DNA from: Burkholderiales bacterium Ga0074133
GTDB lineage: Bacteria > Pseudomonadota > Gammaproteobacteria > Burkholderiales > Burkholderiaceae_C
Assembly: GCA_001464865.1 (NCBI GenBank)
Contig: LNEG01000125.1
Coordinates: 1-64,000, forward strand
Reading direction: 5' to 3'
Length of the DNA stretch: 64,000 nucleotides
The notes below the pieces were generated by a model. That model saw only the letters and a list, made by a program, of their open reading frames with translations, was not told where the DNA came from and did no database searches. Positions within the stretch are counted from its first letter, which is position 1; the number at the start of each line of letters is the position of its first letter. The translations under genes were made by a program, and so were the position numbers. Below, piece after piece: positions 1,047 to 61,989 of the stretch.

Positions 1047-1090
1047 GGTGGGCCTTGGGATCCGTGGAAACCGGGGTTTCCAGTGTTTTC

Positions 1091-1150
1091 AATGTCAAAT
1101 CACGCTGTAGTGCTTGTTTTATAAGCACTACAGCTATCAAAAGCGTAGCG
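1091..1150 (-). repeat. AT-rich palindromic element, copy A (gyrB-dnaN intergenic)
   Basis: Perfect 11-bp inverted repeat ctgtagtgctt(1105-1115)/aagcactacag(1123-1133), next to GCTAtcaaaagcgTAGC; minus strand reads GATAGCTGTAGTGCTTATAAAACAAGCACTACAGCGTGATTTGAC. Confidence 0.8.
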
Positions 1151-7090: not shown

Positions 7091-8527
7091 ATGCTTGCAC
7101 GCCACCACGACCCCATCGTCGCCATTGCCACAGCCCCCGGTCGTGGTGCGGTAGGCATCGTGCGGGTATCGGGCCGGGCCATTGGTGCGCTGGTGCAGGC
7201 GCTGTGCGGCCGCGCACTGAAAGCCCGCGAGGCCACCTACCTGCCTTTTCGCGACGCGCACGGACAGCCCATCGACCAGGGCCTTGCGCTGTACTTCCCC
7301 GGCCCGCACAGCTACACCGGCGAAGACGTGCTGGAGCTGCAGGCCCACGGCGGCCCGGTGGTGTTGCAGTTGCTGTTGGCCCGCTGCCTGCAGGCCGGTG
7401 CCGCCATCGACCCTGCCACCGGCCAGCCGACTTTGCCCGGCCTGCGTGTGGCCCAGCCGGGCGAGTTCACCGAACGCGCCTTTCTCAACGACAAGATCGA
7501 CCTGGCACAGGCCGAGGCCATCGCCGACCTGATCGATGCCAGCACCGAGGCAGCGGCGCGCAGCGCCAGCCGCTCGCTCACCGGCGCGTTCTCGGAAGAA
7601 ATCCACGGCCTGCGCGATGCGCTCATTCACCTGCGCATGCTGGTGGAGGCCACACTGGACTTCCCTGAGGAAGAAATCGACTTCTTGCGCAAAGCGGATG
7701 CACACGGACAGCTATCGAACCTGCAGGAAACGCTGGCGCGGGTGATGCAGCGCGCGCGGCAGGGTGCGCTGCTGCGCGAAGGCATCAAGGTGGTGATTGC
7801 AGGCCAGCCCAATGCGGGCAAGAGCTCGCTGCTCAATGCGCTGGCGGGGGCCGAACTGGCCATCGTCACGCCGATTGCCGGCACCACACGCGACAAGGTG
7901 CAGCAGACCATCCAGATCGAAGGCGTGCCGCTGCACATCATCGACACGGCGGGCCTACGCGACAGCGAAGACGAGGTGGAGCGCATCGGCATCGCCCGGG
8001 CCTGGGATGAAATTGCCGCAGCGGACGCGGTGCTCTTCCTGCACGATCTATCCCGACAGAATGCTATTGAATATATAGCATCAGAGGCAGATATCGAAGG
8101 GGCCTTGGCGCAAAAAGTGCCCAAATCAGTGCCTGTGATCGATGTGTGGAACAAACTCGATTGCGCCGGGCAACACCTGCCCGCCGAGCACAGCGAACAG
8201 GCCACGGTGCAGCGGCCGGCAGTCCGGCTGTCGGCGCGCACGGGCGAGGGCCTGGATGGCCTTCGCCGGCTGTTGCTGCAAGTGGCGGGCTGGCAGTCGG
8301 CCCCGGAGGGCCTGTACATTGCCCGCGCACGACACGTTGAAGCCCTGCACGCCGTGGCGACGCACCTGGACGAAGCGCAAGCCCAACTGCAGGCGCTCGG
8401 ACCGGCGCTGGACTTGCTGGCGGAAGAACTGCGCCTGGCCCAGAACGCGCTGAGCGCGATCACCGGGGAATTCACGTCCGACGACCTGCTGGGCGTGATC
8501 TTCTCCAGTTTCTGCATTGGCAAGTAG
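7091..8527 (+). CDS. mnmE: tRNA uridine-5-carboxymethylaminomethyl(34) synthesis GTPase MnmE
   Basis: [28 protein letters not shown]...[14 protein letters not shown]...[13 protein letters not shown]. Confidence 0.97.
8059..8119 (+). repeat. AT-rich palindromic element, copy B, in frame inside mnmE
   Basis: ATGCTAT(8061-8067)/ATAGCAT(8075-8081) perfect 7-bp inverted repeat in a local AT-rich patch of a GC-rich gene; encodes [15 protein letters not shown]. Confidence 0.55.
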
Positions 8528-11012: not shown

Positions 11013-14000
11013 ATGCCCATCACTATCCTGTTCGTTGAAAGTGATCCGCGCCATGCGCAGGCGGTAAAAGACGCGCTCGCCGACCCTTGGTCGGGCTGGA
11101 CGGTCGACGTGGCCACGACACTGGCTGACACACACTCATATCTCACCACCCGCCGGCCGGATGTCGTGCTGGCGGCCGAGCGGACCATGGGCGGCTCCGC
11201 ATTTGATCTGTTGCAGTCCCTGCGCGGCATTCCATCCATCATCATGGTCGGCATCGGCCACGAAACACGCGCAGCCCAGGCGCTGCGTCACGGCTTCGAT
11301 GATTTCGTGGTGCAGGATTCGCAGCTGGGCTACCTCCTCGAACTGCCCGCCCAGATCGATGCGGTGCTTGAACGCCACGCCGGCAAGCGCGTGCGGGAAG
11401 AAGCAGAGGCCATGCTTGCCCGCCAGCACCGGTTGCTGCAGGCCATCTCGCAGGCGCAGGCCATGTTCATCGCGAGTGCCGGGCCGCGTGCGGCGTTCGA
11501 GGCCCTGCTCGGCGAACTCATGTCTCTCACCCAGAGCGGCTTTGGCATGGTCGGGCAGGTCGAGCGTGCTGAAGACGGCCATCCGTATCTGCGTGTGCAC
11601 GCGCTGACCGACATCAGCTGGGACGAGGCTTCGCGCGCCCGCTATGCCCGCCATGCTGAAGAAGGCATGGTGTTTGACAACCTGGACTCGCTGGTCGGGG
11701 CTGCCCTGCTGACCGGGCAACCGGTGTTGACCAATGACACGTCTGGCGACCCGCGCAGTGCAGGGGTGCCGCCAGGTCATCCGGTCATCCGGTCCTATCT
11801 GGGTCTTCCCATCCATGCCTCGGGCGATCTGGTGGCCATGGTGGGGTTGGCGAACTGCCCGGGGGGCTATTCCGACGCAGACATCCGCTTTCTGCAACCC
11901 CTGCTCAGCACCATCGGGCAGATGGAAATGGCCCGCCGCGCCGAGCTGGCCCGCCGCTCCGTGGAGCAGCAGCTTGCGCGCACCAGCGAGCTCCTGGCCG
12001 AGAAAACGCGCGCGCTGGAAGGTACCCTCGCCAGCGTGTCGCAGGGTATCTCCAACGTGGACGCAGAGGGCCGCATCCGTGTGTACAACCGTCGTTATCT
12101 GGAGGTGCTGGACCTGCCCGAAGCGCTTCTGGCGGCCCAGCCGCGCGTCGAGGAAGTGGTGCGCTTCCAGCAGGAGCGCGGCGACTTCGGCCCCGGGTTC
12201 GAGCTCATAGAGCCTGCAGCCCGCGCCTATGTGGCTTCGGAGTACCCGCCCAGGGGCAAGGACATCACCATGCCGCCCCAGTACATCCGCAAGAACCCGC
12301 ACGGCCGGTACCTCGAGGTGCGCACGCACGTGTTGCCCGAAGGCGGACGGGTGAGGACATTTACCGATGTCACCGACTACCTGAGCACGCTGGAGGCGTT
12401 GCGCCAGAGCGAGGCACGCTGGCGCAGTCTCACGCAGCTGTCTTCCGACTGGTATTGGGAGCAGGACGCGCAGTTCCGCTTTGTGAGGATCGATGGCAAC
12501 GTGGACAAGGTGCCAGGGTCGTGGGAGGCCCATCAGGGCCTTACCCGCTGGGAGCTTCCGCGCACTTTTGCCACCGAGCACCAGTGGGCCGAGCACCGCG
12601 CGCAGCTGCAGGCGCACCAGGTGTTCCACGATTTCGAAATGCGCCAGCAGGCAGACGATGGCAGCGTGATCTGGGTGTCGGTGAGTGGCGAACCCATCTT
12701 TGATCTGGACGGCCAGTTCACCGGCTACCGGGGCGTGGCCCGCGATGTCACCGATCGCAAGCGCGCCGAGGCCGAGATTGAACGGCTGGCGTTCTACGAC
12801 GAGCTGACAGGTCTGCCCAACCGCAGGCTGCTTGCGGACAGGCTCGAAAGGGCCGTTGCAGTGTGCGCGCGCGACGAAAGCCATGGCGCCTTGTTCTTCC
12901 TTGATCTGGACGACTTCAAGGGCGTGAACGACACGCTGGGTCACGACTGGGGCGATCAGCTGCTGGTTCAGGTGGGCGCCCGGCTGCGTGGCTGCGTGCG
13001 CACCATCGACACGGTGGCCCGTCTGGGCGGCGACGAGTTTGTCGTCGTGGTCGGCGGCCTGAGCGGGCAGGCGCCCGCCGCTGCAGCTGAAGCGGAAGCC
13101 ATCGGCTGCAAGCTGCTGCAGTCGCTGAACCAGCCCTACCGTATCCAGGACTCTGACGTGCACAGCACGCCCAGCATTGGCATCGCGCTGTTCTCCAGCC
13201 TGGAGCTGCCGGTGACGGAGCTGCTCAAGCGCGCGGATCTCGCCATGTACCAGGCCAAGTCGCAAGGGCGCAATATGCTGTCGTTCTTCGACCCCGCCGT
13301 GCAGGCCGCGGCGTCAGAGCGATCTGCCCTTGAAGCAGCCATCCGCCAGGGCATTGGCCGCGAGGAGTTCGTGTTGCATTTCCAGCCCGTGGTGAACGAA
13401 CGCGGCGCTGTGCAGGGGGCCGAGGCGCTGGTGCGCTGGCAGCATCCGCAGCGCGGCATGGTGGCACCCGGAGAGTTCATCCCTCTCGCAGAACAGACCA
13501 GCCTGATCCTGCCCCTGGGCCGGCTGGTGCTGTCCATGGCTTGCCGGCAGCTCGCCCGGTGGGCCAGTGCGGGCGTGCAGCCTGCTGCCTCGTGGACTGT
13601 GGCGGTCAACGTGAGCGCGCGGGAGTTCAGGCAGGCCGACTATGTGGACCAGGTCAAGGCGGTGCTCCAGGAAACCGGCGCCGATCCGCGCCGCCTGAAG
13701 CTTGAGCTGACCGAAAGCCTGCTGCTGCATGATGTGGAAGAAAGCATCCTGAAAATGCAGGTCCTGCGCGCGCTGGGCGTCGGCTTTTCGCTGGACGACT
13801 TCGGTACCGGATATTCATCGCTGAGCTACCTCAAGCGGCTGCCGCTGGACCAGCTCAAGATCGACCAGAGCTTTGTGCGTGACGTGCTGACCGACCCTAA
13901 CGATGCGACCATTGCATGCACCATCATCGCCCTGGCGCGCAGCCTGGGGCTGGATGTGGTGGCGGAGGGCGTGGAGACCGAAGGGCAGCGCGCTTTCCTG

Positions 14001-14078
14001 CTGCAAAACGGCTGCCGCAAGTTTCAGGGCTACCTGTTCGGCCGCCCGGGTGCAGCCGACCTGTTGCACGTCGCATAG
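11013..14078 (+). CDS. Receiver-like/GAF/PAS/GGDEF/EAL protein (c-di-GMP turnover)
   Basis: 1021 aa; RTIDTVARLGGDEF (I-site-like RxxD plus GGDEF), AEALVRWQHP (EAL), DDFGTGYSSLSYLKRLPLDQLKID; N-terminal receiver-like fold. Confidence 0.92.
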   Translation: MPITILFVESDPRHAQAVKDALADPWSGWTVDVATTLADTHSYLTTRRPDVVLAAERTMGGSAFDLLQSLRGIPSIIMVGIGHETRAAQALRHGFDDFVVQDSQLGYLLELPAQIDAVLERHAGKRVREEAEAMLARQHRLLQAISQAQAMFIASAGPRAAFEALLGELMSLTQSGFGMVGQVERAEDGHPYLRVHALTDISWDEASRARYARHAEEGMVFDNLDSLVGAALLTGQPVLTNDTSGDPRSAGVPPGHPVIRSYLGLPIHASGDLVAMVGLANCPGGYSDADIRFLQPLLSTIGQMEMARRAELARRSVEQQLARTSELLAEKTRALEGTLASVSQGISNVDAEGRIRVYNRRYLEVLDLPEALLAAQPRVEEVVRFQQERGDFGPGFELIEPAARAYVASEYPPRGKDITMPPQYIRKNPHGRYLEVRTHVLPEGGRVRTFTDVTDYLSTLEALRQSEARWRSLTQLSSDWYWEQDAQFRFVRIDGNVDKVPGSWEAHQGLTRWELPRTFATEHQWAEHRAQLQAHQVFHDFEMRQQADDGSVIWVSVSGEPIFDLDGQFTGYRGVARDVTDRKRAEAEIERLAFYDELTGLPNRRLLADRLERAVAVCARDESHGALFFLDLDDFKGVNDTLGHDWGDQLLVQVGARLRGCVRTIDTVARLGGDEFVVVVGGLSGQAPAAAAEAEAIGCKLLQSLNQPYRIQDSDVHSTPSIGIALFSSLELPVTELLKRADLAMYQAKSQGRNMLSFFDPAVQAAASERSALEAAIRQGIGREEFVLHFQPVVNERGAVQGAEALVRWQHPQRGMVAPGEFIPLAEQTSLILPLGRLVLSMACRQLARWASAGVQPAASWTVAVNVSAREFRQADYVDQVKAVLQETGADPRRLKLELTESLLLHDVEESILKMQVLRALGVGFSLDDFGTGYSSLSYLKRLPLDQLKIDQSFVRDVLTDPNDATIACTIIALARSLGLDVVAEGVETEGQRAFLLQNGCRKFQGYLFGRPGAADLLHVA

Positions 14079-14198
14079 GGATTTGCCAAAGCGTTGCGTC
14101 CGCCTGTGGCCTTTGGGCTCAGTGCAATTGCGGCAGATGCTGCCTTTGTCTGCGCGTGGATGCTTGTCTGGCGAGCGGACCTTCGCGGGGGCATCCCA

Positions 14199-15374
14199 TC
14201 ACGTGCGTTCCAGCCGCTGGAACAGCCCGCCTGCCAGCCTCGCCACCCGCCCATCCAGTTCAAGCGTCAGCAGTTCGACCTGAAGCGTTGCGGCATCCAT
14301 CCCTGTCCGGGCCACCAGAGCATCAATACCCATGGGGTCAAAGCCCAGTGCTGTGAGGAGCGGGCCCTCGGGCAGGTTCGCCAGGCCGCTTTCTCCGGGT
14401 GGGGCGTTATCCGGGGCGCCGCACGGCGCGGCGGTTGGCGGAAGCCGCAGCTCTTCCAGCACATCCTGCGCCGATTCCACCAGCTTGGCCCCTTGACGGA
14501 TGAGCGCATGGCAGCCCCGTGACTGGGGGGAATGGATGGAGCCCGGAATGGCGAACACTTCCCGTCCCTGCTCGACAGCCGTCCGTGCCGTGATCAGTGA
14601 CCCTGAGGCGAGAGCGGCCTCGACCACCAGCGTGCCCTGCGACAGGCCCGAGATGATCCGGTTGCGTTTGGGGAAGTTGGGTGCCAGCGGTGGCGTACCC
14701 AAGGGGTATTCGCTGACCAGAAGGCCCTGCGCGGCTATCCGCCGCGCCAGGTCCAGATTTCTGCGGGGATAGACACGGTCGAGGCCTGTGCCTACAACAG
14801 CGATGGTGGGTGGCGTGCTTGGCGCCTCGGTCTGGCCGGATGCCTCCAGAGCGCCCTCATGCGCCGCTGCGTCGATGCCCAGTGCCAGCCCCGAGACAAT
14901 CACGAAGCCTGCGTCCCTCAGCGCGCGGGCGAACTGACGGGCGTTTTCCGCACCCTGAGCGGTGGGGTTGCGGCTGCCCACCATCGCGAGGCTGGCCGTG
15001 GCCGGAAACGGGTTGTGTGCCAGCCACCGCGCAGCGCCCATCATGTAGAGCAACAGCGGGGGATCTTCGGTATCCAGCAGCGACTGCGGGTATCGGGGGT
15101 CGCCCAGTGTGATCACTGCGCGCGCCACTCCATCGGCTGTCGCGTCGTGCTGCAGCCAGGTCCAGGTGGTTTCGACGAGCCCGGCCAACCCCTCGGGCAC
15201 CTGCACCAGCGCCCTCGCCTGCGCTGGAGTGCTGACCTGCGCCAGTACGGCTTCAGGTTGAACGAAGATGGATTGCGGCAGCCCGAAGCGCGCCAGCAGG
15301 CGCCTCGCAGCGGTGTTGCCCACCCCCGCCGTCAGCGTGAGGCGCAACCATGCACCAAGCTCCTCGAGATCCAT
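14199..15374 (-). CDS. dprA: DNA-processing protein DprA
   Basis: MVGSRNPTAQGAENARQFARALRDAGFVIVSGLALGIDAAAHEGAL. Confidence 0.95.
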   Translation of the reverse strand: MDLEELGAWLRLTLTAGVGNTAARRLLARFGLPQSIFVQPEAVLAQVSTPAQARALVQVPEGLAGLVETTWTWLQHDATADGVARAVITLGDPRYPQSLLDTEDPPLLLYMMGAARWLAHNPFPATASLAMVGSRNPTAQGAENARQFARALRDAGFVIVSGLALGIDAAAHEGALEASGQTEAPSTPPTIAVVGTGLDRVYPRRNLDLARRIAAQGLLVSEYPLGTPPLAPNFPKRNRIISGLSQGTLVVEAALASGSLITARTAVEQGREVFAIPGSIHSPQSRGCHALIRQGAKLVESAQDVLEELRLPPTAAPCGAPDNAPPGESGLANLPEGPLLTALGFDPMGIDALVARTGMDAATLQVELLTLELDGRVARLAGGLFQRLERT

Positions 15375-18092: not shown

Positions 18093-19088
18093 ATGAAAGT
18101 GATCTTTGCCGGAACGCCCGAGTTCGCCAGCGCCGCGCTGCAGGGCCTGCTGCAGGCGGGCTTCTCGGTCCCCCTGGTGCTCACGCAACCTGACCGCCCC
18201 GCGGGCCGGGGCATGAAGCTGCAGGCGTCGCCCGTCAAGCAGTGTGCGCTCTCTCACGGCATTCCCGTCGCGCAGCCGCGCAGCCTGCGCCTGGACGGCA
18301 AGTACCCGGGCGACGCTGCGGCAGCGCGGGATGCACTGCTAGCTGCGCAGGCCGATGTGATGGTGGTGGCCGCCTACGGGCTCATCCTGCCCCAGTGGGT
18401 GCTGGACTTGCCGCCCAAGGGGTGCCTCAACATCCACGCCAGCCTGCTGCCCCGCTGGCGCGGCGCGGCGCCCATCCACCGTGCGATCGAGGCGGGGGAT
18501 GCGGAAACCGGCATCACCATCATGCAGATGGACGCCGGTCTCGATACTGGCGACATGCTGCTCACCGAGCGGCTGCCCATCGCGCTGGCAGACACCACCG
18601 CCACCCTGCATGACCGCCTGGCCGCCCAGGGTGCGCAGCTCATCGTGCAGGCCCTGCAGCTGGCAGCCAGTGGTGGGCTGCGCCCCACGCCGCAGCCGGC
18701 CGACGGCGTCACCTACGCGCACAAGATCGAAAAAGCCGAAAGCACCATCGACTGGTCGCTCGATGCTCCGGCCATCGCGCGGCGTGTGCGCGCCTTTGAT
18801 CCGTTTCCGGGCGCCAGCACCGGGTGCGCCGGTGAGACCATCAAGGTATGGTCTTGCGAAATTGATAGCACTACAGGCAATAAAAACCTGGACCCGGGGC
18901 AGATTTTGTCTGCAAACGGCCAAGGCGTGACGGTGGCGTGCGGCCAAGGCGCCCTGCGCCTGACCACGCTGCAGCGTCCGGGCGGCAAGCGCCTTTCAGC
19001 TGCGGATTTCCTGCGCGGTTTTGATCTGCAGCCCGGCATGCAGCTGGGCGCGATGTCAGGGGCGGCGCCGGACCAGGCAGGCGCATGA
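18093..19088 (+). CDS. fmt: Methionyl-tRNA formyltransferase
   Basis: [20 protein letters not shown]...[21 protein letters not shown]...[20 protein letters not shown]. Confidence 0.98.
18860..18910 (+). repeat. AT-rich palindromic element, copy C (core only), in frame inside fmt
   Basis: AATTGATAGCACTACAGGCAATAAAAACCTGGACCCGGGGCAGATTTTGTC; aligns without gaps over 31 nt to copies D and H. Confidence 0.7.
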
Positions 19089-27340: not shown

Positions 27341-27401
27341 ACTGCTATTGAATAAATAGCAAAACAGGCAATTTACTCAGGGACCTCAGGCCGTTTTTGC
27401 C
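27341..27401 (+). repeat. AT-rich palindromic element, copy D (overlaps 3' end of EamA gene)
   Basis: TGCTATT(27343-27349)/AATAGCA(27355-27361); AATAGCAAAACAGGCAATTTACTCAGGGACCTCAGGCCGTTTTTGCC. Confidence 0.75.
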
Positions 27402-28336
27402 TGAAACCGGGGCCCCAGCAACACGCAGGCCAGCGCAACCACGATGAAGGCAATGCCCGCCCATTGCCAGGGCGCCACCGTCTCGCCCAGCACCAGCCAC
27501 CCGGCCGTGAGCCCCACCACCGGCACGGCCAGGCTGAAGGGCGCCACGCGGTTGGCCGGGTGGCGCTGCAGCAGGTGGGTCCACAGCGCGTTGCCGACGG
27601 TGTTGGCAGCCCACCCAAGGTATGCCACGGCGGCCCAGCCCGACAAGGGAACATTCGCCAAAGCTTCCCACTGCAGCCAGCGGGCGGCATCAGGGTCAAA
27701 AATGGCCGACAGCACGATGAATGGAACGATAGGCACCAGGCTGCTCCAGATCACAAAGGCCAACGGGTCGTAGCCGGGCGCTGCGTTTTGCGCCAGCCGC
27801 GCCACGATGTGGGATGCAGCCCACAGGGATGCGGCGCACAGGGTGAGCACCAGCCCCGCGACCGTGGTTGCCGCTGCAGCACCGGGTGCTTCAGGCCCCA
27901 GGTGGTGCATTCCAAAGCACACCAGGCCAAGGGTTGCCAACGCCATGCCCCATACCAGAGGCCGGCCGGGCTTCTCGTGGAGAAATGCAAACGCGAACAG
28001 CGCGGTGAAGAACACCTGCGTCTGAAGCAGCACACTGGCCAGGCCGGCCGTAATGCCCACCTGCATGCCAATGAACAAAAAGCCGAACTGTCCCACGCCC
28101 TGCAACATGCCGAAGCAGAGCACCCAGCGCCAGTTCACACGGGGCGGCGGGATCATGAGGAGCAGCGGCAGCGCCGCAAAAATGTACCGCGCAGCCCCCA
28201 GCTGAAACGGGGTGAAGCTGCGCAGCCCCCACTTCATCGCCACAAAGTTCACGCCCCACAGCACCACCACCAGCAGCGCCGTCAGCAGGTCGCGCGGGCG
28301 AAAGGGGGTGGCCGGCGCCGGCGCGGGGGCCGTCAC
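27386..28336 (-). CDS. EamA/DMT family transporter
   Basis: GTG start; LLTALLVVVLWGVNFVAMKWGLRSFTPFQLGAARYIFAALPLLL; two EamA repeats. Confidence 0.9.
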   Translation of the reverse strand: MTAPAPAPATPFRPRDLLTALLVVVLWGVNFVAMKWGLRSFTPFQLGAARYIFAALPLLLMIPPPRVNWRWVLCFGMLQGVGQFGFLFIGMQVGITAGLASVLLQTQVFFTALFAFAFLHEKPGRPLVWGMALATLGLVCFGMHHLGPEAPGAAAATTVAGLVLTLCAASLWAASHIVARLAQNAAPGYDPLAFVIWSSLVPIVPFIVLSAIFDPDAARWLQWEALANVPLSGWAAVAYLGWAANTVGNALWTHLLQRHPANRVAPFSLAVPVVGLTAGWLVLGETVAPWQWAGIAFIVVALACVLLGPRFQAKTA

Positions 28337-29102: not shown

Positions 29103-31073
29103 ATGTCCCTGCTCCACCGTCTCAACCTGCTCCAGAAGTTCCTGATTCTCGGCGCCCTCGGGCTGCTGATGAGCGCCCTGCCCACAGGGCTATACGTGGC
29201 CGATGCACTCGGCACTATCGCACACGCACGGCAGGAGGCCGCAGGCATTGGCCCGGCGCAGGCCATCACCCAGCTGGTCCAGCGGGTGCAGGTACACCGG
29301 GGGCTCTCGGCCGGCATGCTGGGGGGCGATGAAGCTTTGGCCGGGCGCCGTCCCGCTGCGCGCGATGCTGTGGAGAAAGTGATTGCCGAGACCGCCGAAA
29401 AGCTCAATGACGCCAACATACCCGCACCCCAGATGGCGGCATGGACCGAGGCCCTGACCACCTGGCGCGCGCTCGAGCAGGCCGTGGGCGCCCGCAGCCT
29501 GGATGCGCCGCAGAGCACTGCGCGCCACACCCAGCTCATTGCGTCGCTGCTGCGGCTGAGCGAGGCCGTGGTGCACAGTTACGGCCTGCAGATCGACCCC
29601 GACGCGCAGACGAGTGCGCTGGTGCAGGCCTCGCTGATCCAGGCGCCCATGCTGGGCGAAAAGCTGGGTGTGCTGCGTGCGCAGGGCGCCGGCGCGCTGG
29701 GCCGCGGCGAGCTCTCGCCCCAAGCCAAGGGACAGATGCTGGTGCTGCAGCAGCGCGTGGTGGAATTGCAGGGCGACACCTTCCGCGGGCTGGACCGCGC
29801 ATTGCAAGGTAACCCAGCATTCGCGAAGCAACTGGCTGAACAGTCGAAGACCATCCAGGAGCAGATCGCGCAGTCCCTGCAACTGGCCGAGCGCGAAGTG
29901 ATCAACGCTACCGAATTCAAGCTGGCCTCGCGCGACTATTTTGATGCTTTCACCCGCACCATCGACGCACTGAACAACCTCAACACCAGCGCCCTGGGCC
30001 TGCTGGACGCGGCGCTGCAGCAGCGCGTGGCCGAAGAGCAGCGCAGCCTGGGCCTGATTGCGGCCGGCCTGCTGCTGGTGATGGCGCTGACCAGTGCCAT
30101 GGCCCTGGTGTTCGTGCGCTCCATCACCGTGCCGCTGTCGCAGGCGGTGCAGCTGTCGCGCGCGGTGGCGCAGGGTGACCTGGGCGAGACCCGCGTGCAG
30201 CACGGCACCAACGAAGTTGGCCAGCTGCTGCGGGCGCTGCTGCAGATGCGCGGCCAGCTCACACACGTGGTGCGCCAGGTGCGCACCGGCTCCGAAGGCG
30301 TAGCCACGGCCAGCGTGCAGATTGCGCAAGGCAACACCGACCTGTCGGCCCGCACCGAGAGCCAGGCCAGTGCGCTGGAGCAGACCGCGGCGTCGATGGA
30401 GCAGCTCAACGCCACCGTGCGCCAGAACGCCGACAGCGCCCTGCAGGCCAGCCAGCTGGCCGCCAGCGCCAGCAAAGTGGCCGTGCAGGGCGGCGAGGTG
30501 GTGGCGCAGGTGGTGGACACCATGCACGGCATCAATGCCTCGTCGCAAAAGATCGCCGACATCATCGGCGTGATCGACTCGATTGCCTTCCAGACCAACA
30601 TCCTGGCGCTGAACGCCGCGGTGGAAGCCGCCCGCGCGGGCGAACAGGGCCGCGGCTTTGCCGTGGTGGCCACCGAAGTGCGCTCGCTTGCCGGGCGCAG
30701 CGCCGAGGCCGCCCGCGAGATCAAGACCCTGATCAACGACAGTGTGGAGCGCGTGGCCCAGGGCAGCGTGCTGGTGGACCGCGCCGGTGACACCATGAAA
30801 GAAGTGGTGGGCTCCATCCGCCGCGTGACGGAAATCATGGGCGAGATCAGTGCCGCAAGCCGCGAGCAGAGCCAGGGCGTGGCGCAGGTGGGCGAAGCCG
30901 TCACGCAGATGGACCAGGTCACGCAGCAGAACGCCGCGCTGGTCGAAGAAATGGCCGCCGCCGCCAGCAGCCTGCAAACGCAGGCGCAAGACCTGGTGAA
31001 GGTGGTGTCGGTGTTCCGCCTGGGCCACGATGCCACCCCTGGCACGCAGCCAGGAGTGCTACAAATACAGTAG
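29103..31073 (+). CDS. Methyl-accepting chemotaxis protein (NIT-like sensor, HAMP, MCP signalling)
   Basis: Hairpin tip [56 protein letters not shown]-terminal [15 protein letters not shown]. Confidence 0.93.
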
Positions 31074-31125
31074 CTATAAAAGACCGATGCACTAGCACGT
31101 TGGGCCAATTGGGCCCGAAATTGTC
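31056..31125 (+). repeat. AT-rich palindromic element, copy E (contains the MCP stop codon)
   Basis: GCTAC(31058-31062)/GTAGC(31070-31074); MCP stop TAG = 31071-31073; right end GAAATTGTCTGCC resembles copy C. Confidence 0.55.
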
Positions 31126-35627: not shown

Positions 35628-35686
35628 TTCGCTATTCAAAAGTAGCTGTTTTCGCTGGTATTTCTGCAGCTCCGGCCCGTTTTGAC
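35628..35686 (+). repeat. AT-rich palindromic element, copy F (starts 2 nt after the AcoR-like stop)
   Basis: GCTATtcaaaaGTAGC then ...CTCCGGCCCGTTTTGAC; 46 bp from AGTAGC to TTTGAC as in copies A and I. Confidence 0.65.
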
Positions 35687-35722
35687 GCTTGGTTTGCCTG
35701 CCACGGGTAGATGCTTTGCCTT

Positions 35723-39812: not shown

Positions 39813-39872
39813 TTTGATATTTAATCAATAGCTTCCAGTGCTTATGAGATAAGCGCTGGGGTTCATTTTCAT
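39813..39872 (+). repeat. AT-rich palindromic element, copy G (between hydrolase and uvrA; overlaps uvrA stop)
   Basis: AATAGCTTCCAGTGCTTATGAGATAAGCGCTGGGGTTCATTTTC; stem ccagtgcttat(39835-39845)/ataagcgctgg(39849-39859) with one wobble. Confidence 0.8.
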
Positions 39873-42800
39873 GCTGAACGGGCCTTGAGATAGGGCGCTA
39901 GGTACCGCCCCGTATGGCTGGCCGGGTTGGCCGCCAGTTCCTCGGGCGTGCCCACGCCCACCACGGTGCCACCGCCCGCGCCGCCCTCGGGGCCCATGTC
40001 GATGAGCCAGTCTGCCGTTTTGATCACGTCGAGGTTGTGCTCGATGATGACGATGGTGTTGCCCGCATCGCGCAGCTGGTGCAGCACCTTGAGCAGCAGG
40101 TCGATGTCGGCAAAGTGCAGGCCGGTGGTGGGCTCATCCAGGATGTAGAGCGTGCGGCCGGTGTCGCGTTTGGACAGCTCCTGCGCCAGCTTCACCCGCT
40201 GCGCCTCACCGCCCGACAGCGTGGTGGCGGCCTGCCCCAGGCGGATGTACGACAGGCCCACATCCAGCAGCGTCTGCAGCTTGCGCGCAATGGTGGGCAC
40301 GTCCTTGAAGTAGGCCGCGGCGTCCTCCACCGTCAGCTCCAGGATCTGGGCAATGTTCTTGCCCTTCCACTGCACTTCCAGCGTCTCGCGGTTGTAGCGC
40401 TGGCCGTGGCAGATGTCGCAGGGCACGTACACGTCGGGCAGGAAGTGCATCTCCACCTTCACCACGCCGTCGCCCTGGCAGGCCTCGCAGCGGCCACCGC
40501 CGGAAGATTGCGACACGTTGAAAGAAAAGCGCCCCGGGCCATAGCCTCGTTCCTTGGCCGTGTTGGTCTCGGCCATCAGCTCTCGGATGGGGGTGAACAG
40601 GCCGGTGTAGGTGGCCGGGTTGCTGCGCGGCGTGCGGCCAATGGGGCTCTGGTCTACGTTGATGACCTTGTCGAAATACTCGATGCCCACGATCTCTTCG
40701 TGCGCAGCCGGCTCCTCGTGCGCGCGGTGCACCTGCCGCGCCACGGCGGCGTACAGCGTGTCATTGACCAGCGTGCTCTTGCCCGAGCCCGACACGCCGG
40801 TCACGCAGGTGAGCAGCCCCACGGGGAAGTCCACCGTGACGCCCTTCAGGTTGTTGCCGGTGGCACCCGCCACGCGCAGGGCCTGCACGGCGCCCTGGCG
40901 TGCATGGTGTTCGGCCATGCGCTCGGCGCGGCGCTTGCTGGCCTCGGTCTGCGGAAATCGCGATTTGGCCTTAGCCTCGACCACGGGCGCGGGCTGGTCC
41001 AGCACGGGCAGCCAGGGCGTGCGCCGCTTTGGCACGGCAATGGTGCGCGTGCCGGACAGGTACTGGCCCGTGAGCGACTGGGCGTTGGCCCGCACTTCGT
41101 CGTACGTGCCCTGCGCCATCACGCGCCCACCGTGCACGCCCGCGCCGGGGCCCATGTCGATCACATGGTCGGCGGCGCGCATCATGTCTTCGTCGTGCTC
41201 CACCACGATCACGCTGTTGCCAATGTCGCGCAGGTGCTGCAGCGTGGCGATCAGCCGGTCGTTGTCGCGCTGGTGCAGGCCGATGCTGGGCTCGTCCAGC
41301 ACGTACATCACACCCGTCAGGCCCGAGCCGATCTGCGACGCCAGGCGAATGCGCTGCGCCTCGCCGCCCGACAGCGTCTCGGCGCTGCGGTCCAGGCTCA
41401 GGTAGCTCAGGCCCACATCGTTCAGGAACTGCAGGCGCGTGGCGATCTCGCGCACCACCTTGTCGGCAATCTCGGCCTTGGCACCCGTCAGCTGCAGGGC
41501 CTTGAACCACGCGTGCGCGCCGCTCAGTGTGGCGTGGCTCACCTCAAAAATGGCGCGGGCCTGGTCGCCCTCGCCCACCTTCACATGGCGGGCCTCGCGG
41601 CGCAGTCGGGTGCCCTGGCATTCGGGGCAGGGCTGCGTGCTGCGAAAGCGCGCCAGGTCCTCGCGCACCACCACCGAGTCGGTCTCGCGGTAGCGCCGCG
41701 CCATGTTGGGGATGATGCCCTCGAACGGGTGCTTCTTGGTGTGCACCTTGCCCTTGGAGGCCCCGCTGTCCATGATGTAGGTGAAGGCGATTTCCTCGTC
41801 GCCCGAGCCGTACAGGATGGCGTGCTGCACCGGCGCAGGCAGCGATTCAAAGGGCGCTTCGATGTCGAATGCGTAGTGCCGCGCCAGGCTCTCCAGCATC
41901 GCAAAGTAGTAGCCATTGCGCCGGTCCCAGCCCTTGATGGCGCCGCTGGCCAGGCTGAGCGTGGGGAAGGCCACCACACGCACCGGGTCGAACACCTCGC
42001 GCTGGCCGATGCCGTCACACGATGGGCACGCGCCCATGGGCGAGTTGAAAGAGAACAGGCGCGGCTCCAGCTCGGCCAATGAATAGCTGCACACCGGGCA
42101 GGCAAACTTGCTGCTGAACAGGTGTTCCTGGCCCGAGTCCATCTCCAGCGCCAGCACGCGGCCGTTGCCGTCGTGGCCGCCCACGCGCAGGGCCGCTTCG
42201 ATGCTCTCGGCCAGACGCTGGGCCAGGTCGGCCCGCACCTTGATGCGGTCGATCACCACGTCAATGTCGTGCTTCTCGGTCTTCTTGAGCACGGGCAGGT
42301 TTTCGTGCTCGTAGGTCTGCCCATCCACCCGGAACCGGATGTAGCCCAGCGCCTGCATCTGCGCAAACAGCTCGGTGAACTCGCCCTTCTTCTCGCGCGC
42401 CACGGGCGCGAGGATCATCAGCTTGGTGTCCTCGGGCAGTGCCAGCACGGCATCCACCATCTGGCTCACCGTCTGCGCCGCCAGCGGCAGGCCGTGCTCG
42501 GGGCAATAGGGCGTGCCCGCACGGGCGTACAGCAGGCGCAGGTAGTCGTGGATCTCGGTCACCGTGCCCACGGTGGAGCGCGGGTTATGGCTGGTGGCCT
42601 TTTGCTCGATGGAAATCGCTGGCGACAGGCCTTCGATCAGGTCTACATCGGGCTTGTCCAGCCGCCCCAGAAACTGCCGCGCGTAGGCCGACAGGCTCTC
42701 CACATACCGCCGCTGCCCCTCGGCATACAGCGTGTCAAACGCCAGGCTCGACTTGCCCGAGCCCGACAACCCCGTGATCACCACCAGCTGGTTGCGCGGG

Positions 42801-43184: not shown

Positions 43185-46100
43185 ATGAAGAAAATCCTCA
43201 CGGCCTTGCTGGGCCTCCTCGTACTGCCTTGTGCCTTCGCAGTGAACTACGCGATCCAGGATGGGGGCAGCGATGGTGCCTGCCCCAACGCGTGGCCGCC
43301 CTCCATCGTTGGCAATTACGTCGAGAACGGCACGCTCAACGGCGTACCGCGTTATGACGGCAACGGCTGGTATTTGTACCGTGCGTCGGTTTTTGGGGCC
43401 AATACCTGGGTCGTCAGCAACGTGCCCGGAAGTACGGACCTGAACAACAGCACGATTGCTTTCTATCTCGGATCTGAGAGCACCACCCCACCCACCGGCA
43501 CGGGCTATGCCAAGACCAACTCGGCCTGCGGCAAGATCAACGTGCAGCAAGGCGTGGCGGTGCCTCCACCAGACGCACCGCAGCTCTACAACCTCAACTC
43601 CGGGACGCCCCCGTACGTGTCATCGGGCAAGGCCACCATGTACTGGTCTGCGGTGGCGGGTGTCGTGGGTTACAAGGTCGACGTGGCGACTGACGCGGCG
43701 TTCACTGCATTTCATCCTGGCTACAACGGGCGGGTCGTTACGGCTTCACCCACCCCGCCAACGTTTCTCGAGGTCGACAACCTCACGAGTGCAGGCACAA
43801 CGTATTACTTCCGTGTGCGTTCCTACACCGGCGCTGGAGACAGCGCGCAGTCGAACGTGATCAGCACCACGACCGTGCCAGCCTCACCGGCGGTCCAGGC
43901 CGCCACAGATGTCCGGGCCAACCGCTTCACCGCCCAATGGAGCGCCGCTGCGGGGGCTGACAGCTATCGACTGCAGGTCTGCACGGATGCGGGGTTTGGC
44001 AGTTGCGTGGGCGGCTACAACCCGGCGGTGCTCGGGGACGCCACACAGACATTGGTGTCGGGCCTTGCACCCAACACCACCTACTACTACCGGGTGTCCG
44101 CCGGAAATGTCAACGGCACGAGCGCGTACTCCGCCAGCACCAGCCTTACCACCAACGCTTTGCCCACGCTTGGGGGCACTTTCACGACGGCAGGCGCAGT
44201 GAATGACAACGCGACCATCGCGCCCTTTTCTGGTGTGACCGTGACCGACGTGAACGCAGGGGCGCTGACCGTGCGCATCACCTACGCTGCGGCAAATGGC
44301 ACCCTCACAGGAACAGGGCTTACAGGCATCGCTGGCAACTACACCGTCGCAGGCGCCAGTCCTGCCGAGGTCACGGCACGCTTGCAAGCGCTGGTGTTCC
44401 ATCCAACCTACGGCCAGGGGCCTGTGGGTACCACCGTCACCACCACGTTCACGCTGGTGCCCAACGATGGCATCGACAACGGGAGCGGCAACAGCTCGAC
44501 AGTGGTGGTCACGACGATGACCAACGTGGCCCCCGCCTTTGTGGCTGGCACGACCAGTCTCACCGTGGGTGCCAACAGCAGTGCCAACGATGTCAAACCG
44601 CTGCTCGCTGTCAATGACTCGGACGCCGGGCAGACGCTCACCTGGACAGTGCAAACCGCGCCCAGCCATGGGTCCGTACAGTTGACGGGGACGGCAACAA
44701 CGGCAGGTGGATCCGGCATCGCTCCATCAGGCACCATCACCTACACGCCCGCTGCTGGCTATGCTGGCAACGACAGCTTCGTCATTCGTGTGAGTGACAG
44801 CTTCGATTCCGCCTTGCGCACCATCACCGTCACCGTACAGGCGGTGGCGCCTGCAGCGCCCTTGATCGGCACCGCCACAGCGGGAGACGGAGAGGCCAGC
44901 GTGACCTTTAACGCGCCTGCCAGCAACGGTGGATCGGCCATCACCATCTACACCGCCACCGCCAACCCGGGCGGTGCATTCGGTACATGCGCCGGGCCGG
45001 CGGCCTGTGCTGCAACCGTCGCTGGCCTGACCAATGGAACGGCCTACACCTTCACCGTCACTGCTACCAACAGTATCGGCACTGGTCCGGCGTCTGGCGT
45101 ATCCAATTCCGTGACCCCAAAGGGCAGTCAAACCATTACTTTTGCCAACCCCGGCGCACAGAATTTTGGAACGACGCCCACGCTCACTGCTACGGCAGCA
45201 TCCGCAACCGGGACCAGCGGTCTGACCGTCAGTTTCACTTCGTCAACCACCGGGGTCTGCACGATCACCAGTGGCGGTGCACTCACGTTTGTGACGGCGG
45301 GCTCGTGCACGATCAATGCGGATCAGGCGGGTGACGCGGCTACCAGTGCAGCGCCGACCGTGACACAAACGTTCACTGTCAGTGCGACAGTGCCCGGCGC
45401 TCCCACGATCGGCACTGCAACCGCCGGCAATACCCAGGCAACGGTCACTTTCACACCACCAGCAAGCACCGGCGGTGCGTCCATCCTGGCTGGGGGCTAC
45501 ACCGCGACTGCCAACCCGGGCGGCGCAACGGGTACGGGCTCTGGTTCGCCCATCACCGTGACCGGCCTGATCAACGGTGTGGCGTATACCTTTACCGTGA
45601 CGGCCACCAACGCGGCAGGGGCCGGTGCAGCTTCGGCCGCATCCAACGCGGTCACGCCGGCGGCGCCCCAGACCATCACGTTCAACGCCCCCGGTGCGCA
45701 GAACTTTGGCACCTGGCCCACGCTCACGGCGACTTCCTCGTCGGGGCTGACGGTAGTGTTTACCTCGTCCACCGCGAGTGTGTGTACGACGACCAGCGGC
45801 GGTGCGCTGATGTTCTTGTCCAGCGGCACCTGCACCATCAACGCTGATCAGGCTGGCGACTCCAGCTATCTCCCGGCCCCGCAGGTCAGTCGCAGCTTTG
45901 CGGTCAGTCCGGCGGTACCTGGCGCCCCCAACATCGGCACGGCCATTGCTGGTGACACCCAGGCCTCCGTGGCATTCACCGCGCCGGTCAACATCGGCGG
46001 CTCTCCAATCACGTCCTATATTGTCACCGTCATCCCTCCAGACGTGGCGCCCGTCACCGGCGCCAGCTCGCCTATCGTCGTCACGGGTCTGACCAACGGA

Positions 46101-46964
46101 CAGGCTTACGCCTTCCGCGTCACTGCCGAGAACGTAGCCGGTGTCGGCCCGGCCTCTGCGGCATCGAACTCCATTACTCCCAAGTCCATCCAGACCATCA
46201 CCTTTGCCAACCCGGGCGCCCAGAGCTTCGGCGCCACGCCCACTCTTGCGGCAACAGCCGACTCCGGCCTGACAGTGGACTTCACGTCCTCCACACCGGG
46301 TGTGTGCACCATCAGCTCGGGTGGCGCCCTTACGTTTGTGGCGGCGGGCGCCTGCACCATCAATGCTGACCAGCCCGGTAGCGCCACTTACCTGGCGGCC
46401 CCTCAAGTCACCAACACCTTCACGGTGAACCCCATGCTCAGCATGAGCGGCACTGTGCCGGGCATGGCGGGCACCGCTACCGCCACGCTGACAGGGGGTG
46501 GTCCGGGTTGCACGCTGGATTCCGCCAACACCCGCTTCATGGCCGCAGTCTCTCTGCCAGCTGGTCGCACTGCTCCGCATGGCGGGTTCGAGTTCCGGGC
46601 CACGGGTTGCACCGGCAGCGTCACCGTGGCTCTGGCCTACCCGGACCCCCTGCCTGCGGGCGTGGCGTTCTGGAAGTTCGGCCCCGCCACGTCGGCCGCC
46701 GCAAGCAGCTGGTTCCAGTGGTCCGGCGCCACGCTCAGTGGAGACCGGCGCACTGTGAGCTACACCATTGCCGACAACGGCGTGGGCGATGCCGACCCCG
46801 CCACCGGGGTGCTGCGAGACCCATTTGTGCCCGCGCTGGGCGGTGCTGCCGATGCGGTGGGCATCCCGGTGGATGCACCTTGGGCGCTGGCCTTGATCAG
46901 TGCGTTGATCGGCTGGTTCGGCTGGCGCCGTACTGGGCGCGCTGCGCCTTCAACACAAGGCTGA
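43185..46964 (+). CDS. Secreted FN3/Ig-like repeat protein with choice-of-anchor-type domain and IPTL-CTERM-like C-terminus
   Basis: Signal peptide MKKILTALLGLLVLPCAFA; FN3 units (PGAPTIGTATAG..TVTFTPPAS..ITVTGLINGVAYTFTVTATNAAG); three QTITF(A/N)xPGAQxFG repeats; C-term PHGGFEFRATGC...ADNGVGDADPATGVLRDPFVPALG + IPVDAPWALALISALIGWFGWRRTGRA. Confidence 0.88.
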   Translation: MKKILTALLGLLVLPCAFAVNYAIQDGGSDGACPNAWPPSIVGNYVENGTLNGVPRYDGNGWYLYRASVFGANTWVVSNVPGSTDLNNSTIAFYLGSESTTPPTGTGYAKTNSACGKINVQQGVAVPPPDAPQLYNLNSGTPPYVSSGKATMYWSAVAGVVGYKVDVATDAAFTAFHPGYNGRVVTASPTPPTFLEVDNLTSAGTTYYFRVRSYTGAGDSAQSNVISTTTVPASPAVQAATDVRANRFTAQWSAAAGADSYRLQVCTDAGFGSCVGGYNPAVLGDATQTLVSGLAPNTTYYYRVSAGNVNGTSAYSASTSLTTNALPTLGGTFTTAGAVNDNATIAPFSGVTVTDVNAGALTVRITYAAANGTLTGTGLTGIAGNYTVAGASPAEVTARLQALVFHPTYGQGPVGTTVTTTFTLVPNDGIDNGSGNSSTVVVTTMTNVAPAFVAGTTSLTVGANSSANDVKPLLAVNDSDAGQTLTWTVQTAPSHGSVQLTGTATTAGGSGIAPSGTITYTPAAGYAGNDSFVIRVSDSFDSALRTITVTVQAVAPAAPLIGTATAGDGEASVTFNAPASNGGSAITIYTATANPGGAFGTCAGPAACAATVAGLTNGTAYTFTVTATNSIGTGPASGVSNSVTPKGSQTITFANPGAQNFGTTPTLTATAASATGTSGLTVSFTSSTTGVCTITSGGALTFVTAGSCTINADQAGDAATSAAPTVTQTFTVSATVPGAPTIGTATAGNTQATVTFTPPASTGGASILAGGYTATANPGGATGTGSGSPITVTGLINGVAYTFTVTATNAAGAGAASAASNAVTPAAPQTITFNAPGAQNFGTWPTLTATSSSGLTVVFTSSTASVCTTTSGGALMFLSSGTCTINADQAGDSSYLPAPQVSRSFAVSPAVPGAPNIGTAIAGDTQASVAFTAPVNIGGSPITSYIVTVIPPDVAPVTGASSPIVVTGLTNGQAYAFRVTAENVAGVGPASAASNSITPKSIQTITFANPGAQSFGATPTLAATADSGLTVDFTSSTPGVCTISSGGALTFVAAGACTINADQPGSATYLAAPQVTNTFTVNPMLSMSGTVPGMAGTATATLTGGGPGCTLDSANTRFMAAVSLPAGRTAPHGGFEFRATGCTGSVTVALAYPDPLPAGVAFWKFGPATSAAASSWFQWSGATLSGDRRTVSYTIADNGVGDADPATGVLRDPFVPALGGAADAVGIPVDAPWALALISALIGWFGWRRTGRAAPSTQG

Positions 46965-49699: not shown

Positions 49700-51859
49700 A
49701 TGCTCCACCTGCAATTCCTGACCATGCCGTTTCCCGGAGTGCGCCACTGGCTGTGCCTTGCAGGCCAGCGCTTGCGGCGGGGAGTCCTTGCCCTGCTGAC
49801 CGGATGCTTCGCGCTGGCACTGCCTGCGCACGCAGCTGTCACCCCGGGTGCGCAAGGATTCGGCACTGGCGATCCGGAACTGGGCCTCATCGGCGAGCTC
49901 AACGGCATTGCGTTCAATGGGCTGGTCGCGGGGGACGGCCAGGGGTGGGTGTACGGCAAGGCAGACACCTACACCTCCTGCAACAACTGCGCGGGCCGCG
50001 GCGGGTTTGCGCTGGCCGAGAACGGCGGGGCCAACACGCCTTCGGTGGCATTCTTCCGTGCGGCAAGCCCGGGAGACCGCTTTGGCGTGAGCGGCGTGCG
50101 CATCTACAACCCCAGCGCTGCCAACACCGGCATGACCGTGCGCGGCTACCGCAATGGGAGCGTGGTGCAGACGGTGTCGCTCACGCTCACCCGCATCTCC
50201 CCGATGCTGGTCACATACGACCTGGGTCTGACCGATGTGGACCAGGTCAGCTTCACTTCCAGCCACGACTGGTTTTTTGCCATCGACGACCTCGGAATTG
50301 CGCCGCGGCCCGCCGTGAGCGGTGTGTCGCCCGTCGGTGGTGCGGGTGGAAGCACGGTCGTGATCACGGGCAGTGGCTTCGCAGCCGCCGGGTATCCGGC
50401 GGGCACGGTGGTGCGGTTTGGCGCGGCCACGGCTGCTGCCACGGTGGACAGCGATACGCAGATCACGGCCACGGTCCCGGCAGGGGTGGGCACGGTGGAC
50501 ATCACCGTGACCACCGCTGGCGGCACCAGTGCCACGGGCAGCGCCACGCAGTTCACCTATCCGCTGGCGTCGCAGAGCATCAGCTTCGCTCCTCCTGGCC
50601 CACAGAGTTTCGGCAGCGCCCCCACCCTGGTGGCGACAGCCAGTTCGGGCCTTCCGGTGAGTTTCAGCACGGCGTCTGCAGGCGTGTGCACCATCACCGC
50701 GGGGGGGCTGCTGAATCTTGTAGCCACCGGTAATTGCACCATCCACGCCGACCAACCGGGGAACAGCAGCTACAGCGCTGCGCCTCGGGTCTCGCAAACC
50801 TTCGCCGTGCAGCCCGTGCCGCCGGGTGCGCCCACCGCGGTGGGCGCCACCGCGGGCGATGGCGAAGCCTTCGTCGTGTTGACGGCCCCGGCCAGCAGTG
50901 GTGGCGACCCCATCACCAGCTACACCGTCACGTCCAGTCCGGGTGGTATCGCTGCGACCGGTACGACCTTGCCCATTCGAGTGTCAGGACTGACCAACGG
51001 CCAGGCGTACACCTTCACCGCCACGGCGACCAACGGAGCGGGCACAGGCCCCGCGTCGGCAGCCTCGGCCCCGGCAACGCCCCGCAGTGCGCAGACCATC
51101 AGCTTCAGCAATCCGGGACCACGCAGCTTTGGCACCACAGGCACCCTCACCGCCACGGCCAGTTCCGCTTTGCCCGTGGCCTTCAGCTCTGCCACGCCCG
51201 GCGTATGCGCCATCACGTCGGGCGGTGCGCTCAGTTTTCTGACTGCGGGCACTTGCACCATCAACGCCAACCAGACCGGCAACGCCAGTTTCTTGCCCGC
51301 TGCGCAGGTGGCGCAAACCTTCCAGGTCAACCCGGTGCTGGGCCGGGCCAGTACCGTGCCCGGCATGGCGGGCTTCGCCAACGCAACGCTCAGTGGCGGG
51401 GGCGCAACCTGTACCCTGGTGGCCGGGGACACGCGCTTCATGTCCCCGGCTCCGCTGCCTGGCGGGCGCAGCGCACCACACGGCGGGTTTGAATTCCGTT
51501 CGGTCGGCTGCGTGGGCAGCGTGACCATCACCATCGCCTACCCCGAGCCATTGCCGGTCGGTGTGGCGTTCTGGAAGTTTGGCCCTGCGAGCCCGGGAGC
51601 CGCCAGCAGCTGGTTTGCGTGGAGTGGCGCCACGCTCAGCCCCGACCGGCGCACGGTCAGCTACACCATTGCCGACAACGGTGCAGGCGATGGCGACCCG
51701 GCCGTGGGGGTGGTGCTCGACCCGTTCGTCCCTGCGCTGGGCGGCGCGGCCGATGCGGTGAGCATCCCTGTGGATGCCCCCTGGGCGCTGGCGTTGATCA
51801 GTGCACTGATCGGCTGGCTTGGCTGGCGCCGGACAACACGCGCGGCGCCCTCGGCATAG
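49700..51859 (+). CDS. Secreted IPT/TIG + Ig/FN3-repeat protein with the same anchor domain and IPTL-CTERM-like C-terminus
   Basis: ATG at 49700; IPT/TIG PAVSGVSPVGGAGGSTVVITGSGFAAAG...; QSISFAPPGPQSFG / QTISFSNPGPRSFG repeats; IPVDAPWALALISALIGWLGWRRTTRA, paralogous to the 43185 gene. Confidence 0.87.
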   Translation: MLHLQFLTMPFPGVRHWLCLAGQRLRRGVLALLTGCFALALPAHAAVTPGAQGFGTGDPELGLIGELNGIAFNGLVAGDGQGWVYGKADTYTSCNNCAGRGGFALAENGGANTPSVAFFRAASPGDRFGVSGVRIYNPSAANTGMTVRGYRNGSVVQTVSLTLTRISPMLVTYDLGLTDVDQVSFTSSHDWFFAIDDLGIAPRPAVSGVSPVGGAGGSTVVITGSGFAAAGYPAGTVVRFGAATAAATVDSDTQITATVPAGVGTVDITVTTAGGTSATGSATQFTYPLASQSISFAPPGPQSFGSAPTLVATASSGLPVSFSTASAGVCTITAGGLLNLVATGNCTIHADQPGNSSYSAAPRVSQTFAVQPVPPGAPTAVGATAGDGEAFVVLTAPASSGGDPITSYTVTSSPGGIAATGTTLPIRVSGLTNGQAYTFTATATNGAGTGPASAASAPATPRSAQTISFSNPGPRSFGTTGTLTATASSALPVAFSSATPGVCAITSGGALSFLTAGTCTINANQTGNASFLPAAQVAQTFQVNPVLGRASTVPGMAGFANATLSGGGATCTLVAGDTRFMSPAPLPGGRSAPHGGFEFRSVGCVGSVTITIAYPEPLPVGVAFWKFGPASPGAASSWFAWSGATLSPDRRTVSYTIADNGAGDGDPAVGVVLDPFVPALGGAADAVSIPVDAPWALALISALIGWLGWRRTTRAAPSA

Positions 51860-58614: not shown

Positions 58615-58649
58615 CGGGCGATGGTACCTGCGGTTTGCCGGGTTTTTGG

Positions 58650-58709
58650 GCTGAATCAGCCGCAGGTCCAGCATTTAATTGCCTTGGCAGCTATTGATTT
58701 AGTAGCAAA
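58650..58709 (-). repeat. AT-rich palindromic element, copy H (upstream of the SRAP gene)
   Basis: Minus strand TTTGCTACTAAATCAATAGCTGCCAAGGCAATTAAATGCTGGACC; ungapped 31-nt match to copies C and D. Confidence 0.75.
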
Positions 58710-61101: not shown

Positions 61102-61887
61102 TCAGGACAGCACGAGTGCCGCGAGTGCCGCCAGCGGAGCGGTTTCGGCGCGTAGCACGCGCGGCCCCAGGGTGACGGGCGCAAAGCCGTGCTCTGCGGC
61201 CAGCGCTTCTTCGGCAGGGCTCAGGCCGCCTTCAGGGCCCGACAGGAACAGCACCGCCCGCCCGTCCTGCCCGGCCACGGCCGTGTGCAGCGGTACCGTG
61301 CCCGCGCGCAGCGACAGCAGCAGGCGCTGCGGTGGCACGGCGGTATCAGCAGCACCGGCAGCATCGGTGCCCGCGCCTGCGCCTGCGCCGTGGTGGCGCA
61401 CCCAGCCGGCCAGGTCCGCGGCCGGGTGCACCAGCGGCACGCGGTTGCGGCCGCATTGCTCGGCAGCCGATATGGCCACGGCCTGCCAGTGGGCGATCTT
61501 CTTGTCGGCGCGCTCGCCCTTGAGCTTGAGTACGCTGCGCTCGGCCATCAGGGGCGTGATGCTGGCCACGCCGAGTTCGGTGGCCTTTTCCACCAGCCAG
61601 TCCATGCGCTCGTTGGCGGTGATGCCAGCCAGCAGGTGCACAGCGCGTGGCGCCTCGCGTTCGATGGCGTGGTGGGCGCCCACGCGCACGCGCACATCGC
61701 TGCGGCCCATGTGGACCACGGTCGCCTCGAACTCGCCCCCCGGGCTGCCGGGTACCAGGCCGCCATCAAACAGCGTGATGGCGTCGCCCGGCTGCAGGCG
61801 CAGCACCTGCACGTGGCGGGCGACACTGGGCGGCAGGTCCAGCTCGGTACCGGTGGCCAGGATGGCGGGGCAGTGAAAACGGGGCAT
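61102..61887 (-). CDS. rsmE: 16S rRNA (uracil(1498)-N(3))-methyltransferase RsmE
   Basis: MPRFHCPAILATGTELDLPPSVARHVQVLRLQPGDAITLFDG...LFLSGPEGGLSPAEEALA...LGPRVLRAETAPLAALA. Confidence 0.96.
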   Translation of the reverse strand: MPRFHCPAILATGTELDLPPSVARHVQVLRLQPGDAITLFDGGLVPGSPGGEFEATVVHMGRSDVRVRVGAHHAIEREAPRAVHLLAGITANERMDWLVEKATELGVASITPLMAERSVLKLKGERADKKIAHWQAVAISAAEQCGRNRVPLVHPAADLAGWVRHHGAGAGAGTDAAGAADTAVPPQRLLLSLRAGTVPLHTAVAGQDGRAVLFLSGPEGGLSPAEEALAAEHGFAPVTLGPRVLRAETAPLAALAALVLS

Positions 61888-61946
61888 TTGCTACTATATT
61901 AATAGCTGTCGGGCATGATAAATCAAGCACCACAGCCCAGTTTGAC
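61887..61946 (+). repeat. AT-rich palindromic element, copy I (abuts the rsmE start codon)
   Basis: TTTGCTACTATATTAATAGCTGTCGGGCATGATAAATCAAGCACCACAGCCCAGTTTGAC; right half matches copy A (CAAGCACyACAGC..GTTTGAC-like). Confidence 0.8.
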
Positions 61947-61989
61947 TCAAAAACGCCTTGCAGCGGCTGCTGCAGGGCTTGCGGACCCA

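Follow-up and report, generated by a model that had tools for sequence, protein, structure and literature searches.

In 2017, two pairs of short words were listed as candidates for new motifs, with no role assigned to them (PMC5217627). The first, GCTTAT(N)5AAGCG in Acidovorax ebreus, has approximately 114 copies (Table 7), of which 94% are intergenic, with 44 convergent and 4 divergent positions. The second, ATAGCT(N)22CAAAAG, was found in Polaromonas naphthalenivorans. The betaproteobacterial repeat element (BRE), which is present in Bordetella and Comamonadaceae, is approximately 90 bp long and has a GC content of 63.7-78.9% (PMC3110155). With regard to REP sequences, one survey found no REP-like sequences for the TnpA-Y1 subclasses 2.1 and 2.3 (PMC6006769), and two others name none of the genera considered here (PMC12306157, PMC3733652).

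The window, which is the whole stretch of 64,000 nucleotides of Burkholderiales bacterium Ga0074133 that was analysed, carries a dispersed hairpin element. Its description as a new variety of REP-like element, which is real, old and spread through the family, is well supported. The words and the spacing of GCTTAT(N)5AAGCG are found inside this element in several relatives, e.g., GCGCTTATCCATCAAGCGC. No name for it was found in our literature search, so it is apparently unnamed, and an Rfam scan of the window returned no family matches above the gathering score. A copy occurs roughly every 8 kb in widespread Comamonadaceae, including Acidovorax, Comamonas, Ottowia and others. The element also shows a rare combination of features, i.e., fixed positions, hairpins maintained in situ, and centres shared within a clade.

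The element and its copies

The borders of the unit, which is approximately 70 bp long, are sharp: in an alignment of 117 copies from the window's own genome with 60 flanking bases, information is present only in columns -4 to 65 and is near background in the flanks. The left end, TTGCTAYTAAATTNATAGCT, is followed by a central stem-loop and by the right end, RATTTGRCYCAAAAA. The conserved word is ATAGC, and the base preceding TAGC in own-genome copies is an A in 91% and a G in 8% of cases. Terminal inverted repeats are weak, as the symmetry of the ends is limited to TTTG and AAA tracts, and the GC content of copies is mostly 0.34-0.53. In many relatives, the central hairpin is GCTAGCGCTTATNNNNNAAGCGCTAGAGGCC. 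The own-genome copies are degenerate, and a pattern scan of that genome found no strict GCGCTT..AAGCGC. A first, sequence-only reading of the window had sorted the copies into two hairpin subtypes (A/G/I and C/D/H), but these are parts of a continuum of centres.

Nine blocks, A to I, were first read and aligned, and a strict stem pattern (AATAGCT, GCGCTT, AAGCGC) was defined. Of 41 related genomes, 22 contain this pattern, and all 22 belong to the same genus; the highest number in a single genome is 97 copies. The reversed pattern has no match in the 41 genomes. Strict-pattern copies from related genomes were used to make a sequence model, R1, which is sequence-only because the mixed seed gave no consensus pair in RNAalifold. 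A further profile was trained without any window sequence. With this leave-out profile, seven of the nine blocks are detected again, at E values from 7e-12 to 8e-5. The profile finds nothing better than E 8.6 in the reversed window.

For these seven blocks (E below 1e-4), the coordinates and the architecture of the sequence-only reading hold. Copy A (1088..1150, minus strand, E 1.4e-5) lies between dnaN and gyrB. Copy B (8060..8127, plus strand, E 9e-6) is an element-like tract in mnmE, in frame and made of AT-rich codons. Copy C (18859..18917, plus strand, E 8e-5) is located inside a called gene (18093-19088) and has no counterpart among the relatives mapped. Copy D (27342..27407, plus strand, E 9e-10) lies between convergent genes and overlaps one 3' end, and copy G (39814..39874, plus strand, E 4e-7) is located at convergent gene ends; both are common to the window and its closest relative, G250. 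Copy H (58642..58709, minus strand, E 8e-10) lies between divergent gene starts, and a copy adjoins the same flank in all six relatives. Copy I (61887..61954, plus strand, E 7e-12) lies between two co-directional minus-strand genes and adjoins a start codon. The two remaining blocks are both on the plus strand between convergent genes. Block E (31052..31124) is not significant alone (E 2.9), but a clear copy occupies the orthologous position in G250 (E 1.3e-6). Block E is thus a real but decayed copy, rather than the one approximately 11 nt longer that had been proposed. Block F (35629..35689) remains unconfirmed, since it is scored solely by a model trained with F, is missed by the leave-out profile, and has no match at that place in G250. 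Elsewhere in the window, positions 45024-46490 and 50987-51391 hold diverged long direct repeats with 65-76% identity, which presumably encode domains that recur within large proteins.

The initial estimate of nine or more copies is true but too low for the genome, where R1 has at least 150 matches, all at E 0.0011 or better. A profile search had been proposed as a check, and it finds many copies genome-wide and in Comamonadaceae. In a wider search, 358 copies were detected in fetched loci totalling 1.5 Mb, compared with none in the reversed sequence, so that the hits do not reduce to chance matches, an outcome that the sequence-only reading had allowed for; the reversed-pattern control is likewise empty. 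The density in syntenic stretches of six relatives is 0.9 to 1.5 per 10 kb, or approximately 1.2, which by extrapolation would mean approximately 500 copies per genome. Within the family, matches are found in 65 of 201 sampled genomes and in 52 of 141 genera (E 1e-4, stricter filters). Among the matches listed are Acidovorax, Ottowia, Ramlibacter, Diaphorobacter, Comamonas, Simplicispira, Extensimonas, Giesbergeria, Alicycliphilus, Rhodoferax and Polaromonas, and the named ones are mostly Comamonadaceae.

Fixed positions, maintained hairpins and shared centres

Positions were compared in syntenic stretches of 54-87 kb from seven genomes, i.e., the window, G250, G257, G018, G011, G004 and G024. 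Counting the alignments that span a site, with rearranged sites outside the count, 199 of 202 pairwise comparisons within the genus show a filled site, three a partial one, and none an empty one. An all-against-all blastn of the fetched loci found no empty sites either, contrary to the prediction that relatives would have them, and the compared sites showed no sign of a transposition event, a junction or a target duplication. The reading of the family as MITE/REP-like therefore divides: a dispersed family that is old and REP-like, with variable interiors between fixed ends, is retained, whereas a MITE that is mobile inside the genus is rejected. Copies A and I are each present at the orthologous site in 30 of 30 same-genus genomes read. 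Presence and absence differ solely between genera, in the dnaN-gyrB gap, where 11 of 28 genomes read have an element at E 0.01 or better; no clean junction is seen there, and the flanks are too diverged for a target duplication to be read. The elements diverge faster than their own flanks.

A separate region, 13930-14290 of the window, has an element in five relatives at the orthologous position near 14030, and none in the window's own genome and G250. It was considered as a clean empty site and rejected, as synteny breaks there.

In the own genome, the central hairpin has a mean energy of -8.72, compared with -6.47 +/- 0.11 when columns are permuted among copies. As no complementary pairs are among the top ones in the mutual information between columns of own-genome copies, orthologous sites and permutation tests were used. 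At site A, with 22 orthologs, two-sided changes are present in 7 of 13 pairs, and the covariation of 0.247 lies above all slid versions and is reached by none of 500 shuffles (0.108 +/- 0.017). Site I is weaker but shows the same direction, at 0.201 against 0.150 +/- 0.017, a value reached by 2 of 500 shuffles; at both sites, the shuffles leave the relatedness of the sequences in place. Real hairpins are also more stable, at seven of seven sites, than chimaeras in which the 5' half of one species is joined to the 3' half of another (p 0.016), the effect being smallest at the protein-coding mnmE copy. Judging from these alignments, the central hairpin is maintained in situ by two-sided substitutions at orthologous sites, and the covarying stem predicted for the family is borne out at A and I.

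The centres also show a pattern between sites. In the clade of G018, G004 and G024, three different orthologous sites have the centre CATATTGCACTRGCGC, and the centre at these sites is of the GCGCTT type in G257 and G011. The word TTGCAC is present in 7 of 23 copies of this clade and in 0 of 32 elsewhere, with a p of 0.0012 that is optimistic, as the motif was noticed before testing and the result rests on seven copies. The presence of clade-specific centres at several fixed sites suggests that copy-to-copy exchange or in-place replacement is the best explanation.

The RAYT-like gene and the possible origin of the element

A search for Y1 transposases led to P0001, a RAYT-like HUH transposase of approximately 232 residues. 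It matches Pfam Y1_Tnp, has HFH and Y---NP motifs, and scores 75.8 bits against NCBIfam NF047646 (REP-associated tyrosine transposase), just below the cut-off of 80. The sole match in a PDB sequence search was a designed Pizza protein, which was taken as spurious. The RAYT-like gene is found in 186 of 201 family genomes, with one copy in nearly all, and the three element-bearing genomes without a match are all less than 90% complete. As elements are found in only 65 of the same 201 genomes, the presence of the enzyme is no predictor of the presence of elements. One genome, G056, has several near-identical IS200-type transposase genes (loci L247, L268, L273 and L275), and it also has the element.

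In 213 kb covering 70 RAYT loci, 14 element matches are found at E<0.05. Ten of these, from 10 genomes of 9 genera, are antisense copies lying across or adjoining the stop codon of the gene, and two are within 100 bp upstream of it. The centre of the adjacent copy is of the own-genome type in the window's genome and of the GCGCTT type in G160 and G011. Downstream of the gene, the flank GCTATNNAAATTTGAT is followed by RTGTCCC, which indicates that other sequence has taken the place of the element's left end. A scan of the RAYT flanks with a 15-nt left-end motif was weak, owing to a one-base indel. The hairpin strength of the 3' flanks is suggestive, with a mean z of -0.81 in element-bearing genomes, 0.16 in others and -0.12 in controls. 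With regard to the wider surroundings of the gene (1462-2160 in L258; also L277, at C46 of the own genome), GGGGAC.. upstream and TGTCCCC / CTGACCCC downstream are conserved, including in genomes without detected elements. The link between gene and element is suggestive, as the common position and orientation of the copies could equally reflect a single ancient insertion or a functional pair.

The explanation that we favour, at slightly less than an even chance, combines these observations: an old, non-autonomous REP-like element would have been spread by RAYT in an ancestor and would now be fixed, with its centres still exchanged. A single-strand (HUH/Y1) activity may have spread the copies in an ancestor of the genus; the most plausible source is the resident RAYT-like transposase, as an antisense copy lies at the end of its gene. 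Insertion would later have stopped or become very rare, while copies would still swap their hairpin centres by conversion or templated replacement, and only sequences that can fold on one DNA strand would be passed on. The copies may also be retained in part because they benefit the host at the 3' ends of genes. As neither target duplication nor transposition was seen, the mechanism of spread is unproven and the status of MITE is not established. The absence of the classical GTAG foot counts against the role of RAYT, as does the negative survey result for subclasses 2.1 and 2.3 (PMC6006769), to one of which P0001 may belong. The faster divergence of the elements relative to their flanks also speaks against this explanation. 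If the link is true, it bears on the targets of near-universal single-copy RAYT proteins.

It is less likely, but still deserving of attention, that the element is a cis-acting RNA, i.e., a transcript hairpin at gene 3' ends that terminates transcription in both directions or stabilises mRNA ends, and is selected by the host at each site. The gene context is in agreement with this. With genes called by a simple codon model, a context could be assigned to 105 own copies. Of these, 8 are inside genes and 97 are intergenic, with 30 in convergent, 55 in co-directional and 12 in divergent gaps. The convergent to divergent ratio is 30:12 in own copies, compared with 29:51 in background gaps (p 3e-4), and 46:9 in named genomes, compared with 50:99 (p 2e-10); the A. 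ebreus motif is similarly skewed (PMC5217627). The two-sided changes at sites A and I are also expected for an RNA hairpin, and several genera that lack the element have another GC-rich hairpin in the dnaN-gyrB gap, of the ACCCGC..GCGGGTTT type. However, own copies show no orientation bias relative to genes, the orientation of the T-tract is independent of that of the genes, and no strong U-tract directly follows the stem, which is followed by NATTTGAC in the aligned own copies. The excess of G.T over A.C mismatches in stems should reverse with the direction of transcription if the function were that of an RNA, but it is 0.67 and 0.68 for the two directions (p 1). This strand test is suggestive of a one-strand DNA reading over a transcript, although ancestral variants may contribute. 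Furthermore, centres shared by a clade at different sites are unexpected under independent selection at each site.

We consider it rather improbable that elements at fixed positions evolve in concert because an enzyme, perhaps a RAYT-like HUH transposase, overwrites their centres in place instead of inserting. The mnmE gene (7091-8527, protein P0002) is relevant here. Its element-like tract is conserved in the same-genus genomes read, and in most other genera read the corresponding coding sequence has the same length (44 residues) and is usually GC-rich at third positions. The tract therefore looks like a replacement of coding sequence rather than an insertion, although it may instead be a convergent resemblance to the element. 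In-place overwriting would explain this, as the coding sequence is replaced and not interrupted.

A MITE that is still mobile, with a DDE-type insertion sequence as its driver, could account for the discrete borders, the high copy number and the patchy presence among genera. This is very unlikely in view of the lack of empty sites in the 202 within-genus comparisons and the weak terminal inverted repeats, and no autonomous relative was seen in a non-exhaustive search. Chance AT-rich blocks or a compositional artefact, which would suit block F alone, can practically be dismissed given the empty reversed-sequence and reversed-pattern controls.

Comparison with described repeats

The element differs from an intrinsic terminator in that its stem has no strong U-tract directly after it in the direction of transcription. 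Like bacterial MITEs, it is small, non-coding and dispersed with sharp borders, but no target duplication or insertion polymorphism was observed and its terminal repeats are weak. It resembles BREs in being dispersed and mostly intergenic with some copies in genes, and in being present in Polaromonas, Rhodoferax and Acidovorax (PMC3110155). In contrast, its length of approximately 70 bp and its GC content of mostly 34-53% set it apart from BREs in size and composition.

The similarity to REP/REPIN sequences and their RAYT (TnpA-REP) is closer. The element forms stable imperfect palindromes in high copy number, mostly between genes, and a RAYT-like gene lies beside a copy in several genomes. 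However, the GT[AG]G tetranucleotide at the hairpin foot is missing, and the element has two ends of its own and positions that are fixed through the genus. With regard to the motifs of PMC5217627, that work reported short word pairs alone, without an element, borders, relatives, structure or history. ATAGCT(N)22CAAAAG has a shorter spacer than the element and is likened to it by description. The first motif, in turn, falls within the stem-loop consensus and, like the element, is intergenic and rich in convergent positions.
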